Positions 19,413-28,452 of a DNA stretch of 35,497 nt are shown piece after piece; the first letter of the stretch is position 1, and each line of letters begins with the position of its first letter. A program made the translations under genes and the position numbers. Source of the DNA: Oscillospiraceae bacterium (lineage in GTDB: Bacteria > Bacillota > Clostridia > Oscillospirales > Acutalibacteraceae). Under the pieces are notes generated by a model that did not search any database, had not been told where the DNA came from, and worked only from the letters and a program-made list of their open reading frames with translations. The stretch covers positions 18,148-53,644 of the forward strand of contig JAFLUK010000001.1 in the NCBI GenBank assembly GCA_022508865.1. The letters are read 5' to 3'.

Positions 19413-20678
19413 ATGAAAAAAACACTTTCCTTGTTTCTTGTTCTGGTTATGGCATTGTCTGTAATCACAGTGGCAGGAACAGCAGCATCCGCAGCAGAAA
19501 CAGCATCAGTTAATGGTGTGGATTGCTATGTGGGAAATACTGTTATTGTCACCTATGACTTAAAGACACCCGGTAAGGCAGAAAACTTCCAGGGTCAGCT
19601 GAACTACTCTTCAGGTCTTAAGCTCGTAGAGTGTCTTCTCGGTGAAGAGGCAGGCGTTATGACAGAAACAGAAATTCCAAACATTGTTTACTACAGTGGC
19701 TCCACCACAGAAAATCCTTACGATTTTACAACAATGAAAAATCTTGTTACTGCAAAATTTGAAGTTGTTGGAGCAGGTGCACAAACTGTTGAAAACAAAA
19801 TGTACATAATCTCGGGTGTTGACGGCACAGATTATTACAACAGAGGCGAAAATAACGGTACAGAAGAAAAGACTTCTGTAGAAATTGTTAAGGTAGATGC
19901 AGAATCTGTTACTCTTAATATTAACGCAGCAACAGTAAAAGCAGGCGCAACCTTCACACTTACAGCTACAGTTGCACCTGAACTCACATCAGACAAAACT
20001 GTTACCTTTACCTCCGACAACGAAGCAGTTGCAACAGTTGATGCAAACGGTGTGGTTACAGCTGTTGGTCCCGGTAAGGCAACAATCACAGCAACATGCG
20101 GCAGCGCTACAGCGACTTGCGTAGTAACAGTTAAACAGCCTGTATCAAAAATTAAGATTTCAGGTCCGACTTCCGTAAAGAACGGCAAGACAGTTACACT
20201 TAAGGCAACAGTTACTCCTGCAGATGCTGACAACAAGACAGTTACTTGGTCAACAAGCAACAAGAATATTGCTAAAGTTTCAGCTAATGGTGTAGTTACA
20301 GGTGTTAAGCCCGGTAAGGTTACAATCACAGCTAAAGCTAATGACGGTTCAGGCGTTAAGGAAACATACACAGTTACTGTTAAGCAGCAGAAGTCAGCAA
20401 AGATTACAGGAGTTAAGAAGTCCTATACATTAAAGATTAAGAAATCTACAACAGTTAAGCCTACATTATCTCCAAAGAACACTTATAACAAGAACATCAC
20501 TGTTACACTTGATAAGAAGGCTAAGAAGATTGTTAAGGTTTCTGCTAAAACTGTAAAGTCAGGTAAGACTGTTAAAATAACTGCTCTTAAGAAGACAGGT
20601 AACGGTAAAATAACATTCAAGGCAAAAGACAACTCAAAGGTAAAGGTTGTTGCTAAAATTACAGTTAGGAAAAAGTAA
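19413..20678 (+). CDS. Secreted cohesin-like/Big_2 modular protein
   Basis: This encodes 421 residues. Residues 1-28 are a signal peptide ending ASAAE. Next comes a module of about 130 residues starting SVNGVDCYVGNTVIVTYDL, with NPYDFTTMKNLVTAKFEV and SGVDGTDYY; its pattern resembles a cohesin-like beta-sandwich and recurs in the next gene. Two Big_2 immunoglobulin-like domains follow (about 161-245 and 246-327), each with the ATVDANGVVTAVGPGKATIT-type signature. The last 95 residues are very rich in Lys and probably form another beta domain. No LPXTG, SLH or dockerin motif is seen, so wall attachment is unexplained; the strong positive charge may bind anionic polymers. The codons strongly favour ACA, GTT and AAG, suggesting high expression. 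Confidence 0.85.
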   Translation: MKKTLSLFLVLVMALSVITVAGTAASAAETASVNGVDCYVGNTVIVTYDLKTPGKAENFQGQLNYSSGLKLVECLLGEEAGVMTETEIPNIVYYSGSTTENPYDFTTMKNLVTAKFEVVGAGAQTVENKMYIISGVDGTDYYNRGENNGTEEKTSVEIVKVDAESVTLNINAATVKAGATFTLTATVAPELTSDKTVTFTSDNEAVATVDANGVVTAVGPGKATITATCGSATATCVVTVKQPVSKIKISGPTSVKNGKTVTLKATVTPADADNKTVTWSTSNKNIAKVSANGVVTGVKPGKVTITAKANDGSGVKETYTVTVKQQKSAKITGVKKSYTLKIKKSTTVKPTLSPKNTYNKNITVTLDKKAKKIVKVSAKTVKSGKTVKITALKKTGNGKITFKAKDNSKVKVVAKITVRKK

Positions 20679-20713
20679 TTTTTATTATTATAGAAGTAAT
20701 TTTTATTATTATA
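20674..20713. repeat. 21-base tandem duplication across a stop codon
   Basis: AGTAATTTTTATTATTATA occurs at 20674-20692 and again at 20695-20713, a 21-base period. The first copy contains the TAA stop of the upstream gene, so the duplication sits at the 3' end and leaves the protein unaltered. Confidence 0.9.
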
Positions 20714-20719
20714 AAATAA

Positions 20720-20740
20720 CCTTCCAAGCGTTTTGGGAGG
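20720..20740 (+). other. Hairpin between the two secreted-protein genes
   Basis: CCTTCCAA pairs with TTGGGAGG (eight pairs, one T-G) around GCGTT. No T-run follows, so termination is doubtful; it may protect or attenuate the mRNA between two co-transcribed genes. It is 44 bases before the next ATG. Confidence 0.5.
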
Positions 20741-20784
20741 TTGTACTTCCGCAAAAAACAAAAAACAGAAAGGAACAAAAATCT

Positions 20785-23700
20785 ATGAAAAGATTAGTAT
20801 CAATTCTACTTTCAATTTTGATGCTTACATCCCTTTTTGTGACAGGTACAGTTATGGATGCATCCGCAGCTTCTGCAACTGTTAATGGTGTACCTTGTGA
20901 TGTTGGTGACACCGTTACTTTCACAGTGAAGGCGAATTTTGGCGATAAATTGGAAAACTACCAGGCAGACATCCTCTATTCCGAGGAAGGTCTATCTCTG
21001 ATTCCAAATCCTGATTATGACCCGGTTTGGGACGAGGAAACAGAAAAGTATAAATACACAGCATACGATCAAGGTTGTATTTTCAATCCGAACAATACAA
21101 GAGACTATCCGGGTCGTCATGCAATTTCTTACAATCATTCCATTCCAAGCGGTGGCTTTGACTATAGAACAGAAAGAGAAATGGTTTCTATTCCGTTTAA
21201 GGTTACAAAGGCCGGCTCATGGACTATTGATAACAAATTCCTTGTTGCAACAGGTGTAAGAGGCACAGAGTATGTAGCAGGTGGAGTAGTTATAACACCT
21301 TTTACAGTTAATCCGATTGTAGAGGTTACAGAAAAGGGAGTTGTTGATCCTCCTGTTCCCGGCGGTAAAGCAACAGTTAACGGCATTGAATTTAATGTTG
21401 GCGACTATATTCTCTTTGATCTTAGAATGAACTTTAACTCAAAGCTTGAGAACTATCAGGGCTATATTGTTTATTCAGAAGAAGGTCTTGAACTTGTTCC
21501 GGATCCTGAGTATGATCCTGATTGGGATGAATATACAGAAGAATTTATCTACACACCGGGCGACTCTGGTTTTGTATTTAACCCTGTAGACACAAAGACT
21601 ATACCGGGAAGAACAGTTATTTCCTACAATGCTTCTATTCCAACCGGCGGCTTTGATTACAGAACAGAAAAATCTGTTGTTACAATTCCTTTCCATATTA
21701 CAAAGGCCGGTACATGGACAATCAATAACAATCTTAAGATTGCTACAAGCATTAAGGGTGAAGACTTTGTTGGAGAGGACGGCTCAAAGCTCAAGCCATT
21801 TACAGAAAATCCGGTAATTACAGCTGACCCTGATCATCAGCAGCCATCTTCATCTTCCAGTTCTTCATCATCCAGCTCATCTTCAAGCAGCTCAAGCAGC
21901 TCAAGTAGCTCAAGCACAACTCCAAAGCCAACAAAGGCTACATTTAACGGAATAGATGTTTCAGTTGGTGACATTGTAACATACAAATATATGCTGAAGG
22001 TACCACAGAAGATAGAGGACTTCCAGCATACTATTGAATACGGCAACAGTGCAACAGGCAACACAACAGGAGTTACTATTCTTTCAGTTGCACTCAGCGA
22101 TGATATTAACACAGATTATGCAACTCATATTCCTGGTTACATTTACTCATCAGGTTTCTCTGCAAAGTATCCTTATGACTACACAACAGAGAGAGCTCTT
22201 ATTACTGTAAAATTCAAGGTTGAGCAGATTGGTACATACTATGCTCACGGTAAAATGGAATTTATGACAGGTGTTGACGGCACAGACTATTCTCATATGT
22301 ATGAAATGGTAGTTCCGTTTGATGAAGAAGATGTTATCGAGATTGAGTCAACTACATCATCTTCATCATCATCTTCGTCCTCATCCTCATCTTCCTCATC
22401 AACGGCTCCAACGACATATTCTATCACATATAATCTTACAAATGTAACATCATCCAGTTCGGCAACATCACTTGCGAAGGGCGATTCTTATACAACAACA
22501 CTTACACCTGCAGCAAATTATGAAATTTCAAATGTAACTGTAATGATGGGTTCACAGGCTGTTACACCTACAAAGAACAGCAATGGTACATATACAGTTG
22601 CAATTGCTAATGTAACAGATAACATCGTTATTGTTGCTTCTGCAACAAAGAAGGATGATCCGATTATTAACCGCACTGTTACACTCAACGTTGTAAATGC
22701 ACAGTCAACAAACATAGCAAAAACTGTTATTGATGGCACAACATATACAACAACTCTCGTTCCAAACGAAGGATATGAATTCAAGACAGCTCCAACAGTA
22801 GTTGGCGGTACAAATGTATCCATTGTTAAGAGCGGCGACAATTATATCATCACATTAACAGCTACAAGTGACATTACTATCGTTGCTATTGCAGATAAGA
22901 AGGCAGTAACTTCATCATCTTCATCATCTTCATCTGCTTCATCAGCACCTGCTCCAAAGACATTTAATGTTACAAATAGTCTTACAAATGCAAAGAACTC
23001 AAATACAGCAACAACTGTTAAGGAAGGCGACCAGTATGTAGCAATGATTTCTGCAAATGATGGTTACACAATGCAGAGCGTTGTTGTTACAATGGGTGGT
23101 CAGACTGTTACACCAACAATTGTAAATGGTGTTTACACAATCAATGTTAAGGTAACAGGCGACATCGTAATTGTTGCTATTGCAAACAAGGATGATGTTG
23201 TAACACCTGGCACATTCTCAATTACTAATGTATTGGACAATGCTGTTAACTCAAATAGTGCAACATCCATTAAGGAAGGCGAGACATACACAGCCCTCAT
23301 TTCTGCAAAGGAAGGCTATGAGATGCAGTCCGTAGTTGTAACTGTTAACGGTGTGAATGTTGCAGTACAGGAAATCGGCGGCGTATATTCTATTAATGTT
23401 AAGGCTACAGGTCCGATTATTATCATAGCAAAAGCTACACCTAAGGCAACAACTCCACCACCTACAACAGCTTCAACACCTACAGCTACAAAACCATCAG
23501 AAACTGTTGCTCCCACAACTCCACCACAGAATGTGCAAGAAGCAGAAAAGAATATTACAAATGCAAATGCCGATAAGGGCGACATTAAGGGCTCAACATT
23601 CGGTAAGCTTAAGATGAAGGGCGTAGGCGGCAACAAGAAGGTTACACTTAAGTGGTCTAAAGTTTCCGGCGCAAAGGGCTATATCATCTACGGCTCACCT

Positions 23701-24159
23701 TGCGGTAAGAACAATAAGCTTAAGAAGATTAAGACAGTAGGCGCAAGCAAGAAGTCATTTGTAAACAAGAAGCTCAAGAAGGGCACATACTACAAGTATG
23801 TTGTTATGGCTTATAAGGTAGTCGGCGGTAAGAAGGTTGTTATAGCTATCTCTAAGGTTGCTCATGTTACAACTAACGGCGGCAAGTGGGGTAACCCTGC
23901 TAAGATGTCTGTTAATAAGGCAAAGGTATCACTGAAGGTTAAGAAGACCTTTACTGTTAAGCCAAAGGTTACAAAGGTAACTAAGTGCAAGAAAAAGAAG
24001 GTTAAGAACCACATTAAGATCCGTTATGAATCCAGCAACACAAAGGTTGCAACAGTTAACGCAAAGGGTAAGATTACCGCTAAGAAGAAGGGTACATGTA
24101 CAGTATACGTATATGCTCAGAACGGTATCTACAAGACAGTTAAGGTAACTGTTAAGTAA
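20785..24159 (+). CDS. Large secreted modular protein: three cohesin-like modules, four beta repeats, Fn3-like and Big_2
   Basis: This encodes 1124 residues from ATG 20785 (site AGAAAGGAA). The ORF track's start at 20647 lies in the upstream gene. Order: signal peptide (1-29, ending ASAAS); module A1 (about 30-180) and A2 (195-345), close copies sharing LENYQ, YSEEGL and GGFDYRTE; a 23-Ser linker (355-377); module A3 (384-515), closer to the module in the upstream protein; a 15-Ser linker (525-539); four repeats of about 80 residues (from 543, 629, 725 and 809) with a TGDIVIVA-type ending; a third Ser linker (710-720) between repeats 2 and 3; a Thr/Pro linker (885-930); a Lys-rich Fn3-like domain (940-1035); and a terminal Big_2 domain. 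No sortase or SLH signal is visible. Probably a surface or extracellular scaffold/adhesin; function unknown. Confidence 0.85.
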   Translation: MKRLVSILLSILMLTSLFVTGTVMDASAASATVNGVPCDVGDTVTFTVKANFGDKLENYQADILYSEEGLSLIPNPDYDPVWDEETEKYKYTAYDQGCIFNPNNTRDYPGRHAISYNHSIPSGGFDYRTEREMVSIPFKVTKAGSWTIDNKFLVATGVRGTEYVAGGVVITPFTVNPIVEVTEKGVVDPPVPGGKATVNGIEFNVGDYILFDLRMNFNSKLENYQGYIVYSEEGLELVPDPEYDPDWDEYTEEFIYTPGDSGFVFNPVDTKTIPGRTVISYNASIPTGGFDYRTEKSVVTIPFHITKAGTWTINNNLKIATSIKGEDFVGEDGSKLKPFTENPVITADPDHQQPSSSSSSSSSSSSSSSSSSSSSSSTTPKPTKATFNGIDVSVGDIVTYKYMLKVPQKIEDFQHTIEYGNSATGNTTGVTILSVALSDDINTDYATHIPGYIYSSGFSAKYPYDYTTERALITVKFKVEQIGTYYAHGKMEFMTGVDGTDYSHMYEMVVPFDEEDVIEIESTTSSSSSSSSSSSSSSSTAPTTYSITYNLTNVTSSSSATSLAKGDSYTTTLTPAANYEISNVTVMMGSQAVTPTKNSNGTYTVAIANVTDNIVIVASATKKDDPIINRTVTLNVVNAQSTNIAKTVIDGTTYTTTLVPNEGYEFKTAPTVVGGTNVSIVKSGDNYIITLTATSDITIVAIADKKAVTSSSSSSSSASSAPAPKTFNVTNSLTNAKNSNTATTVKEGDQYVAMISANDGYTMQSVVVTMGGQTVTPTIVNGVYTINVKVTGDIVIVAIANKDDVVTPGTFSITNVLDNAVNSNSATSIKEGETYTALISAKEGYEMQSVVVTVNGVNVAVQEIGGVYSINVKATGPIIIIAKATPKATTPPPTTASTPTATKPSETVAPTTPPQNVQEAEKNITNANADKGDIKGSTFGKLKMKGVGGNKKVTLKWSKVSGAKGYIIYGSPCGKNNKLKKIKTVGASKKSFVNKKLKKGTYYKYVVMAYKVVGGKKVVIAISKVAHVTTNGGKWGNPAKMSVNKAKVSLKVKKTFTVKPKVTKVTKCKKKKVKNHIKIRYESSNTKVATVNAKGKITAKKKGTCTVYVYAQNGIYKTVKVTVK
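21847..21915 (+). repeat. Ser tract 1 (23 codons, mixed codons)
   Basis: Twenty-three consecutive serine codons use TCT, TCA, TCC, AGC and AGT in mixed order. It links module A2 to A3 of the secreted protein. Confidence 0.95.
22357..22401 (+). repeat. Ser tract 2 (15 TCN codons)
   Basis: Fifteen consecutive serine codons, all of the TCN class, link module A3 to the first beta repeat. Confidence 0.95.
22912..22944 (+). repeat. Ser tract 3 (TCA/TCT repeats)
   Basis: Eight TCN serine codons, one Ala, then two more Ser codons form the linker between the second and third beta repeats. The DNA is a near-perfect TCATCATCT repeat. Confidence 0.9.
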
Positions 24160-25614: not shown

Positions 25615-26160
25615 ATGCCAACAGTATTTTTAAGCCCATCGGTGCAGGATTTTAACCCATACATAGACGGGGGTAACGAGGAATATTATATGAATTTAAT
25701 TGCTGATGCAATGGAGCCATATCTTGCGGCATCAGGAATTAATTATGTGCGGAATAATCCTAACGAATCTACCAAGCAGGCTATTGTGGACAGCAACAAG
25801 GGCAACTACGATTTGCACCTTGCAATACATTCCAATGCTTCTCCCGACAACATAAGAGGACAGCAGACAGGTACTGATATTTATTACTATCCAACATCAA
25901 CACAAGGAAGAGCTTTTGCTGAAATTATTGAAAAAAATTTCAAAACAATTTACCCTAATCCAAACAAGGTAAGAATTCTTTCTACAACCAAGCTGGGAGA
26001 AGTTCGTCAGACTTCTGCCCCTTCTGTGCTGGTGGAGGTTGCATATCATGACAACAGGCAGGACGCCCAATGGATAAGAGATAATATAGGAAATATTGCA
26101 AGGGTGCTTGCCCAAAGTGTTGCAGAATATTTTGGTGTGCCCTTTGTTGAGCCAAAATGA
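25615..26160 (+). CDS. N-acetylmuramoyl-L-alanine amidase family (Amidase_3-like) with atypical zinc site
   Basis: This encodes 181 residues with GGAGG before the ATG and no signal peptide or wall-binding repeats. Amidase_3 enzymes are zinc hydrolases cutting the bond between MurNAc and the stem peptide. Recognisable parts: an early Glu in GGNEEYYMNLIADAMEPYL, LHLAIHSNAS with a zinc His, and VLVEVAYHDN with the catalytic Glu. The first zinc ligand, normally His in a DPGHGG loop, is missing; the sequence there is LSPSVQDFN. The protein may use another ligand, or be a divergent member acting on a different substrate, for example in sporulation or lysis. Cytoplasmic or holin-dependent unless secreted by another route. 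Confidence 0.75.
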   Translation: MPTVFLSPSVQDFNPYIDGGNEEYYMNLIADAMEPYLAASGINYVRNNPNESTKQAIVDSNKGNYDLHLAIHSNASPDNIRGQQTGTDIYYYPTSTQGRAFAEIIEKNFKTIYPNPNKVRILSTTKLGEVRQTSAPSVLVEVAYHDNRQDAQWIRDNIGNIARVLAQSVAEYFGVPFVEPK

Positions 26161-26228: not shown

Positions 26229-26882
26229 ATGGATAGGAAAATTATAGAAAAAACCATTGAAAATCTTAAAAAGAACAATATGCAGGCATATTTCTGTGAA
26301 ACCCCTGAAGAGGCACAGGCTCTTGTAAAAACTCTTATTAAAAAGGGTGAAACAATTTCCTCCGGTGGTTCTCAAACACTTAAGGAAACAGGCATAATGG
26401 ATATTATTAAAGGTGGCGACTACAACTATCTTGACCGTGCCGTTGAGGGCTACACAAGAGATGATGTAGAAAAAGTATACAGACAAACCTATAGCTGTGA
26501 CACCTACTTTGCTTCATCCAATGCAGTAACAGAAAGCGGATATCTTTACAATGTTGACGGCAATTCTAACAGAGTGTCGGCAATTTTGTACGGCCCAAAG
26601 AGTGTTATTCTGGTTTGCGGGGTAAATAAAATTGTTAAAAATATTGATGAGGCCGTAGAGAGAGTAAAGACAAAGGCAGCTCCTCCAAATACAGTACGTT
26701 TAAGCTGTGATACCTACTGCGCAGAAAAGGGTCACTGCTTGAGCCTTGACAATAACAGCGCAGAAATCTGTGACGGTTGCCACAGTGACGGCAGAATATG
26801 CTGCAATTTCGTTATCAGTGCTCAACAAAGACACAAGGACAGAATTAAAGTAATTTTTATTAACGAGAATTTCGGATACTAA
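26229..26882 (+). CDS. LUD-domain (LutC/YkgG-like) protein with Cys-rich C-terminus
   Basis: This encodes 217 residues. The LUD domain is found in LutB/LutC lactate-utilisation proteins and in many stand-alone anaerobe proteins of unknown substrate. Visible signatures: GETISSGGSQTLKETGI, YFASSNAVTESGYLYNVDG, and GPKSVILVCGVNKIVKNIDEAVERV. The last 50 residues hold a cysteine cluster (CDTYCAEKGHC, then CDGCHSDGRICCNF) that could bind an iron-sulphur cluster or zinc. No lutA or lutB neighbour is present, so lactate oxidation cannot be inferred. It has its own strong promoter and is probably monocistronic, ending at the hairpin at 26905. Confidence 0.82.
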   Translation: MDRKIIEKTIENLKKNNMQAYFCETPEEAQALVKTLIKKGETISSGGSQTLKETGIMDIIKGGDYNYLDRAVEGYTRDDVEKVYRQTYSCDTYFASSNAVTESGYLYNVDGNSNRVSAILYGPKSVILVCGVNKIVKNIDEAVERVKTKAAPPNTVRLSCDTYCAEKGHCLSLDNNSAEICDGCHSDGRICCNFVISAQQRHKDRIKVIFINENFGY

Positions 26883-26954: not shown

Positions 26955-27068
26955 TTATCTGTTATTACTATTCTGGTTGCTATTCTGGTTCTGGCTGTTC
27001 TTGCTGTTTTTGCTATTCTGATTTTGGTTCTGGTTGTTATTCTGGTTATTGTTCTGATTGTTGCTCAT
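26955..27068 (-). CDS. 37-residue Asn/Gln-rich microprotein
   Basis: This is absent from the ORF track because it is short. On the minus strand the start ATG follows GGGAGGTGTTATT, a near-ideal ribosome site. The peptide starts MSNNQNNNQNNNQ and ends SNNR: 19 Asn, 8 Gln, 6 Ser, 2 Lys, 1 Arg and Met, with no hydrophobic residue after the Met. It has no signal peptide or membrane segment and should be disordered, like prion-type low-complexity segments. It is divergent from the RsmF-like gene (55 bases between starts) and convergent with the LUD gene. The ribosome site, an intact frame and a downstream hairpin support a real gene. Function unknown; small Asn/Gln-rich proteins occur among spore-associated proteins, but that link is only a guess. 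Confidence 0.7.
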   Translation of the reverse strand: MSNNQNNNQNNNQNQNQNSKNSKNSQNQNSNQNSNNR

Positions 27069-27123
27069 AATAACACCTCCCTTTAATATGATTATTTGCC
27101 TATAAAAAGGAAATATACAAGTA

Positions 27124-28452
27124 ATGGATAAATTTTTTTCAGAAATTAAAAATTTAATACCTGATGATTATGAGGATTTTTTGCACTATTATGAACAAGA
27201 GCCCTATAAGGGGCTAAGAGTAAACACTCTCAAATGCTCGGTAAGTAAGTTGAAAGAATTGCTTGATTTTGACTTGACAGAAACACCCTTTTGCAGTGTG
27301 GGTTTTTACTATCCTAATGAAGAAAAGGGTCTTGGAAAACATCCTTTGCACCATGCAGGAGCCTTTTATATTCAGGAACCCTCGGCAACCTCTGCTGTTA
27401 CAATGCTTGATGTAAGGGAGGGTGACACAGTTCTTGATATGTGTGCCGCCCCCGGTGGAAAAAGTACTCAAATTGCCGCATTGCTCAATGGAAAGGGCCT
27501 TTTGGTTTCCAATGAAATTGTAAAAAGCAGAGCAAATATTCTTCTTTCTAATATAGAAAGAATGGGTGTCAGGAACAGCGTGGTGTTAAGCAATCACCCT
27601 AAATGTATTGCAGACCATCTGAAAGGATTTTTCGACAAAATTTTGGTTGACGCCCCCTGCTCGGGAGAGGGAATGTTCAGAAAGGATAGCGGCGCAAAGT
27701 CAGAGTGGAGCTACCAGCATACCGTTACTTGTGCCGCAAGACAACTTGAAATTCTTAACAGTGCAAAGCACTGCCTGAAAGAGAACGGGATTTTGGTGTA
27801 TTCCACCTGCACCTATAACAAAAGAGAAAACGAGGAAGTTATTCTGAAATTTATTGAGGAAAATCCCGAATTTGTAATAGAGGACAGCGGACAAGCCTTT
27901 GGCAGAAATACCCTTGGTTACGCTAAAAGAATATTTATAAATGACGGCGGAGAGGGTCACTTCTGTTGCAGATTGAGAAAAACTTCGTTTGAAATGGGCT
28001 ATACACAGCCCTATAGGTACAATGAAATTAAAGACAAAAAGCTGAAGGGCATGATAAATGATATTTATGATAGTCTTTTTGTCAATCGTCCCTTTGGTGA
28101 AAATTTTCAGATGATCGGGGACAAGGTGTATATTCTGCCTGATAATATGCCGGATATAAAAGGACTAAATGTCATTAGAAGCGGTATTTTGCTTGGTGAA
28201 ATTAAGAAAAACAGAATTGAGCCCAGCCATAGCGCCTTTATGGCTGCTAATGTTGAGGATTGCAGAAATATTGTTGATTTAAAAGCCTGCAGTGAGGAAA
28301 TAAAAAGATATCTCCATGGAGAAGAAATCCCTGTTGACAGCAGTATTAAGGGTTATACTGCTGTGGCGGTAGAGGGTGTTGTTACAGGCTTTGGCAAGGC
28401 AAGCAACGGAACTTTAAAGAATAAATATCCAAAAGGATTAAGAAATTTATAA
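27124..28452 (+). CDS. RsmF-like 16S rRNA m5C methyltransferase (NOL1/NOP2/Sun family)
   Basis: This encodes 442 residues and transfers methyl groups from SAM to cytosine C5 in rRNA. Motifs: SAM-binding DMCAAPGGKSTQ, the catalytic-loop cysteine in DAPCSGEGMFRK, and the second cysteine in YSTCTYNKRENEE. The N-terminal ferredoxin-like segment (PYKGLRVNTLK) and a C-terminal RNA-binding region of about 150 residues ending in NKYPKGLRNL match RsmF/YebU rather than RsmB. The start lies 11 bases after AAAAAGGAAA. It is followed after 33 bases by rsmA, another 16S methyltransferase, so the two probably form an rRNA-modification operon. The exact target cytosine is not deducible. Confidence 0.9.
   Translation: MDKFFSEIKNLIPDDYEDFLHYYEQEPYKGLRVNTLKCSVSKLKELLDFDLTETPFCSVGFYYPNEEKGLGKHPLHHAGAFYIQEPSATSAVTMLDVREGDTVLDMCAAPGGKSTQIAALLNGKGLLVSNEIVKSRANILLSNIERMGVRNSVVLSNHPKCIADHLKGFFDKILVDAPCSGEGMFRKDSGAKSEWSYQHTVTCAARQLEILNSAKHCLKENGILVYSTCTYNKRENEEVILKFIEENPEFVIEDSGQAFGRNTLGYAKRIFINDGGEGHFCCRLRKTSFEMGYTQPYRYNEIKDKKLKGMINDIYDSLFVNRPFGENFQMIGDKVYILPDNMPDIKGLNVIRSGILLGEIKKNRIEPSHSAFMAANVEDCRNIVDLKACSEEIKRYLHGEEIPVDSSIKGYTAVAVEGVVTGFGKASNGTLKNKYPKGLRNL

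Follow-up and report, generated by a model that had tools for sequence, protein, structure and literature searches.

An Asn/Gln-rich microprotein gene facing rsmF in Acutalibacteraceae and its predicted forespore-type promoter

The window analyzed here, the whole 35,497-nucleotide stretch of DNA introduced above, carries on its minus strand a 37-residue frame, a protein-coding gene conserved in a family of gut and rumen clostridia and headed by a predicted promoter of the sigma-F/G class (Table 1). The explanation that we consider best, with confidence only a little past the midpoint, is that this single-copy gene, expressed in the forespore under sigma-F and/or sigma-G, encodes a small, disordered, basic protein rich in Asn, Gln, Ser, and Lys that would act as a storage-type or minor SASP-like protein of the spore core. 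The host assembly is an incomplete draft genome of 1.55 Mb in 199 contigs.

Table 1. Features of the microprotein gene and its immediate surroundings in the window
Feature	Position	Strand	Basis or remark
rsmF, 16S rRNA m5C methyltransferase RsmF-like, divergent neighbor	27124-28452	plus	PF01189, PF17125, PF17126, PF13636
-35 element GTATA, predicted sigma-F/G type GHATR	27114-27118	minus	pattern before 39/52 relatives versus shuffles
-10 element AATAATC, predicted	27090-27096	minus	AATAATA, AATACTA, CATAATA in relatives; AATAATC/CATAATC also before spoIIR in the genus
Shine-Dalgarno site GGGAGGTG	27081-27074	minus	5' of ATG 27068; (A)GGAGGTG kept in most relatives
Microprotein ORF, Asn/Gln-rich, basic, 37 aa	26955-27068	minus	translation, position kept, third-position divergence
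Terminator-like hairpin 3' of the stop, lying between the LUD gene and the convergent microprotein gene	26936-26905	minus	folding energy
LUD-domain protein gene, convergent neighbor	26229-26882	plus	PF02589, 1.7e-49

The microprotein gene and its conservation

The frame translates as MSNNQNNNQNNNQNQNQNSKNSKNSQNQNSNQNSNNR followed by a stop, with 27 Asn/Gln in 37 residues (73%), so the original prediction of an intact Asn/Gln-rich minus-strand frame was correct. The ribosome site placed ahead of it is real, the hairpin placed behind its stop is present (minus strand: -14.7 kcal/mol, z -1.9), and the rRNA methyltransferase gene that it was said to face is rsmF. On the plus strand the same hairpin lies within a -20.8 kcal/mol structure (z -3.2) and is common to the convergent LUD gene. 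The rsmF and LUD genes served as synteny anchors only and lie outside the microprotein unit. In a pattern search for paralogues, all QN-X-NQN sites of the genome fell inside the microprotein gene. Farther out, an N-acetylmuramoyl-L-alanine amidase gene (25615-26160; Pfam Amidase_3, 9.7e-17; weak CwlD match) stays beside the LUD gene also in L210, a relative's locus without rsmF. The window also encodes a large secreted protein (20647-24159) with two long serine runs (S-repeat linkers) between repeated domains, adjoining another secreted, Big-domain-like protein (19413-20678).

To survey conservation, 59 relatives were scanned with rsmF as the anchor; the frame chosen at each locus was the most N/Q-rich one with a Shine-Dalgarno-like site, while position, promoter, and finer ribosome-site features played no part in the choice. 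In 25 of 30 rsmF-containing loci of the genus, the same divergent position facing rsmF is occupied by a short, hydrophilic ORF led by an (A)GGAGGTG-type site. Counted by assessable genome, 25 of 29 carry such an ORF, mostly N/Q-rich, and 1 more has it elsewhere. This recurrence of ORF and ribosome site at one place exceeds chance; the search for sister frames proposed with the original prediction thus returned them in 25 genus genomes, and the overlooked microprotein held up as a real gene. A further locus (L028, G010) is cut off at the ribosome site but still shows the promoter, and in another genome (G026, L025) the rsmF arrangement is lost and the microprotein is kept between LUD and rsmA (L210). 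No microprotein was found at this locus in three genus genomes (L004 in G019, L017 in G027, and L020 in G021); these keep spoIIR, and G021 also keeps SASP, a comparison of microprotein and SASP presence in which genome completeness varies and the microprotein's neighbors can change, as in G026. In G019 (L004:1811-2870), the gene opposite rsmF encodes an AbrB/SpoVT-like regulator, and probable SpmA/SpmB-like spore-maturation genes come after it.

Outside the genus, the microprotein occurs in the named or labelled MAG loci L122-L148 and in the cultured Pseudoruminococcus massiliensis Marseille-P3876 (gene at L127:2618-2821; Acutalibacteraceae by NCBI placement). Families f1 (seven other genomes: L233-L237, L239, L240) and f18 (L202, L259) have it too. 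The same scan found none in the negative controls, namely rsmF loci L151-L201 (Bacilli, Lachnospiraceae, other clostridia) and loci L242-L258, L260, and L261. Sporulation of P. massiliensis was not demonstrated in the ethanol-stool paper on this species (PMC7089995).

Substitution patterns bear on whether the frame is translated. Counted over 13 orthologue pairs, first, second, and third codon positions show 49, 45, and 142 nucleotide differences; as these concentrate at third positions, the frame is a protein gene. Synonymous and nonsynonymous codon changes number 6 and 0 between L016 and L022 and 5 and 3 between L010 and L011, together 11 and 3. The contrary reading, that the frame is untranslated and represents a small RNA or a repeat-derived tract open by accident, draws on the low-complexity A/C/G repeat and on its not being traceable by HMM searches, and we judge it extremely improbable: start and ribosome site are retained together with the third-position divergence, frames are full length in 52 loci, and in those 52 sequences CAC/CAT codons are nearly absent (21, versus 445 CAA/CAG), with 1012 AAC/AAT versus 253 AAA/AAG codons. 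A search of Rfam gave no match.

The 52 microproteins are 30 to 83 aa long with almost no hydrophobic residues and overall comprise 38.4% Asn, 16.9% Gln, 12.7% Ser, and 9.6% Lys (Ile, Leu, and Val together 0.5%), figures that lean N/Q-ward through the choice of frame. Asn outnumbers Gln about 2:1, and the N/Q share runs from 26% to 88%, with S/T/K-rich versions at 26 to 40%. Nearly all orthologues are basic and K/R rich, with net charges mostly of +3 to +6, though a few relatives (L145, L136) have a charge of 0 or -1. The conserved trait is thus a hydrophilic, basic, low-complexity chain, rich in N/Q in the majority of members but not in every one.

A forespore-type promoter ahead of the frame

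The original prediction left the promoter unknown; we find the putative sigma-F/G pair GTATA-N17-AATAATC just upstream of the ORF. It had pointed to CATATTA as a sporulation-type -10, and the connection to sporulation stands, while the box itself does not: CATATTA (27090-27084) has no -35 at 17 to 18 nt and is not the conserved box, and the predicted -10 lies one hexamer upstream. The pattern GHATA-N(16-18)-nAnAhT precedes the ORF in 39 of 52 relatives, the regex missing the other 13, versus a mean of 1.17 and a maximum of 4 in dinucleotide shuffles and 1 of 52 on the complementary (rsmF) strand, exact counts that are to be read with the tuning of the pattern in mind. A first regex, which asked for A or G as the last -10 base and a G-first -35, had missed the alpha/beta-SASP promoters and the window's own, whose -10 ends in C where A is usual. 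It was relaxed once, after the spoIIR and SASP leaders had been viewed, so the data helped to shape the pattern; controls by spacer, shuffling, and the reverse strand act as safeguards, and the enrichment is too large for regex tuning to explain. Spacer counts peak at 17 (26 cases) and 18 (13 cases).

For sigma-F and sigma-G in Clostridioides difficile, consensus sequences closely resembling each other and their B. subtilis counterparts have been reported (PMC3789822), and we predict the promoter class as sigma-F/G jointly. An ordinary sigma-A promoter of a vegetative gene could be imagined instead, with the boxes belonging to the divergent rsmF promoter or matching by chance, given that the two start codons are only 55 bp apart in an A+T-rich region and that the rsmF 5' leader and the boxes overlap. 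The distribution of the boxes makes this very unlikely. They travel with the microprotein gene to a position facing rsmA (L210) and to places beside unrelated genes (L202, L294-L302), and the pattern is found in 0 of 4 scanned loci without the gene; because the promoter stays with the gene under changed neighbors and is missing where the gene is missing, it is not part of the rsmF promoter. The spacing fixed at 17 or 18 and the contrast between the two strands argue in the same direction, and a generic sigma-70 scan gave nothing above shuffles. Transcription of the microprotein gene in the forespore is very probable.

As yardsticks, known sporulation genes of the same genomes were compared. 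spoIIR is controlled by sigma-F in both B. subtilis and C. difficile, and its leaders carry GHATA-N17/18-nATAhT in 10 of 24 loci (shuffle mean, 0.14), with the window's own -10 form and CATAATC among the variants. Alpha/beta-SASP leaders read, by inspection, [TC]HATA-N17-CA[CT]AATA, and the SASP promoter of the genome under study is TCATA-N17-TACAATA. By these comparisons, the promoters of spoIIR and alpha/beta-SASP genes appear to be of the same form as the microprotein's or a closely related one. Among the sporulation genes of the genome under study are one for an alpha/beta-SASP (G000:C31, 1.5e-28) and one for a sigma-G-like factor (G000:C60, 4.8e-121), whose score falls short of the curated threshold of its family here and in all 59 relatives alike. 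No spoIIR turned up in this incomplete assembly, but 55 of 59 relatives have it.

Two further features of these leaders were seen. In spoIIR leaders L062-L091 the sigma-F-type -10 is part of a conserved CCTGCC...GGCAGG inverted repeat with a T run after it, immediately 5' of the start codon; this arrangement could be the upstream gene's terminator or a spoIIR-leader attenuator. In alpha/beta-SASP leaders L032-L060 (e.g., L033 and L047), a conserved inverted repeat, ACTATTGCGGCGA ... CGCCGC, comes right after the -10 and suggests a 5' hairpin in the SASP mRNA.

Relation to known families and possible function

The gamma-SASP SspE (PF04259) of Bacillus is rich in Asn and Gln, and the microprotein resembles it in being small, hydrophilic, and Asn/Gln-rich, with a forespore-type promoter (a likeness at the promoter level only). 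It differs in often having about half the length and in lacking gamma repeats and visible GPR sites: no repeated cleavage site of the E-(F/I)-A type and no gamma-SASP repeat could be seen by eye in the 52 microproteins. Neither the window microprotein itself nor any protein in 39 relatives, its own genome included, matches PF04259, while the B. subtilis control does, so the microprotein is not a gamma-SASP by membership. SASPs are shorter than 100 aa and made in the forespore (PMC8452069, PMC3533761); gamma-SASP is hypothesized to be an amino acid reservoir (PMC8452069), and in clostridia it is reported absent and minor SASPs are few (PMC3533761, PMC8452069). The minor SASPs (SspH, SspI, SspJ-SspP, Tlp) are likewise small hydrophilic forespore proteins of narrow taxonomic range (PMC3533761), and under a broad description of that group the microprotein is under 100 aa and hydrophilic, its forespore character being read at the promoter level only; it differs in its N/Q-repeat composition and in having no Pfam or NCBIfam match. 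With the alpha/beta-SASP (PF00269) of its own genome it shares the promoter class, but neither sequence relation nor the conserved DNA-binding SASP sequence.

The family is absent from the protein-family libraries searched: no Pfam or NCBIfam model matches the microproteins, which is a weak negative given HMMER's handling of bias. When the order was searched with an HMM of the microprotein alignment, there was one match and the window's own gene was missed, probably through bias correction removing low-complexity matches; relatives were instead traced by way of rsmF, the ribosome site, and the promoter.

In the mechanism that we propose, sigma-F and/or sigma-G RNA polymerase would transcribe the gene in the forespore during sporulation, and the product would be deposited in the spore core, a location that is likely; its abundance there is presumed. 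Our best guess at its role, put forward tentatively and somewhat doubtfully, is that of an Asn/Gln nitrogen reserve and hydrophilic packing material or protectant, made in the forespore and used at germination, which by analogy would make it a clostridial functional counterpart of SspE. Against a reserve speaks the size, as a protein of 37 aa would have to be very abundant to serve as a reservoir. The missing GPR sites and gamma-SASP repeats, the 13 relatives that the promoter regex misses, the three genus genomes that keep spoIIR but not the microprotein at this locus, and the C that ends the window's own -10 likewise count against the proposed mechanism.

Two rival readings likewise place the protein in the forespore. 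The chain might be a nucleic-acid-associated minor SASP that binds and protects DNA, RNA, or ribosomes in the core; a net positive charge in nearly all orthologues, K/R evenly spaced in QNKNQ repeats, and the forespore-type promoter fit such a role, yet the charge is modest, vanishing or turning negative in the relatives named above, and no motif is conserved beyond composition, leaving it rather unlikely. Unlikely too, and rated slightly lower, is a structural or phase-separating (prion-like) function, in which the N/Q tracts, by assembling or gelling at the forespore membrane or within the core as it dehydrates, would aid dormancy instead of serving as a reserve. Low complexity rich in N/Q invites this idea, as does GerG (CD0311) of C. 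difficile, a lineage-specific clostridial sporulation protein whose Asn-rich low-complexity repeats gel in vitro (PMC5241399). GerG, however, is larger, belongs to the mother-cell sigma-E regulon, has Met/Pro-rich repeats that are dispensable, and acts on Csp germination proteins (PMC5241399). Bacterial prion-like domains such as that of C. botulinum Rho share the N/Q-rich low complexity but sit inside large proteins, whereas the microprotein is wholly low complexity, short, basic, and variable in N/Q, with some orthologues rich in S/K/T. Because of the excess of Asn over Gln, the basic character, the small size, and the S/T/K-rich orthologues, an amyloid reading is less favored; the composition would better fit selection for a hydrophilic, basic, disordered chain, and the "prion-like" label is unsupported so far.

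If a storage-type or minor SASP-like protein is what the gene encodes, an N/Q-rich forespore-type gene would fill the clostridial gamma-type/minor SASP gap in published surveys (PMC3533761, PMC8452069) and explain how a low-complexity gene escaped homology searches. It would also be a rare instance of a nearly pure N/Q protein maintained by natural selection in bacteria, and it offers a defined, testable object, with promoter, start, and neighbors in a cultured isolate.

Similar microproteins in other clostridial families

A loose class-wide pattern matched mostly ordinary proteins, and only short N/Q ORFs were retained. Near-consensus sigma-G promoters precede 5 of the 11 such ORFs from other orders or families, versus a mean of 0.03 and a maximum of 1 in 1000 shuffles: GTATA-N17-CACAATA in L294, GAATA-N17-CATAATA in L295 and L296, GCATA-N17-CATACTA in L301, and GTATA-N17-TATAATA in L302. 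Several clostridial families may thus carry undescribed, forespore-transcribed, nearly pure Asn/Gln microproteins that are functional equivalents of gamma-SASP, evolved independently through the growth of repeats and having promoter, ribosome site, and composition, not an alignable sequence, as their defining features, a proposal that we hold to be almost evenly balanced, leaning slightly against, and for which low-complexity sequence cannot separate homology from convergence. Microproteins made of N and Q only were seen in L305 and L295/L296 (G358, G557, G336), e.g., MNNNNNQNNNKNNNNNQ..., several of them with near-consensus sigma-G promoters.
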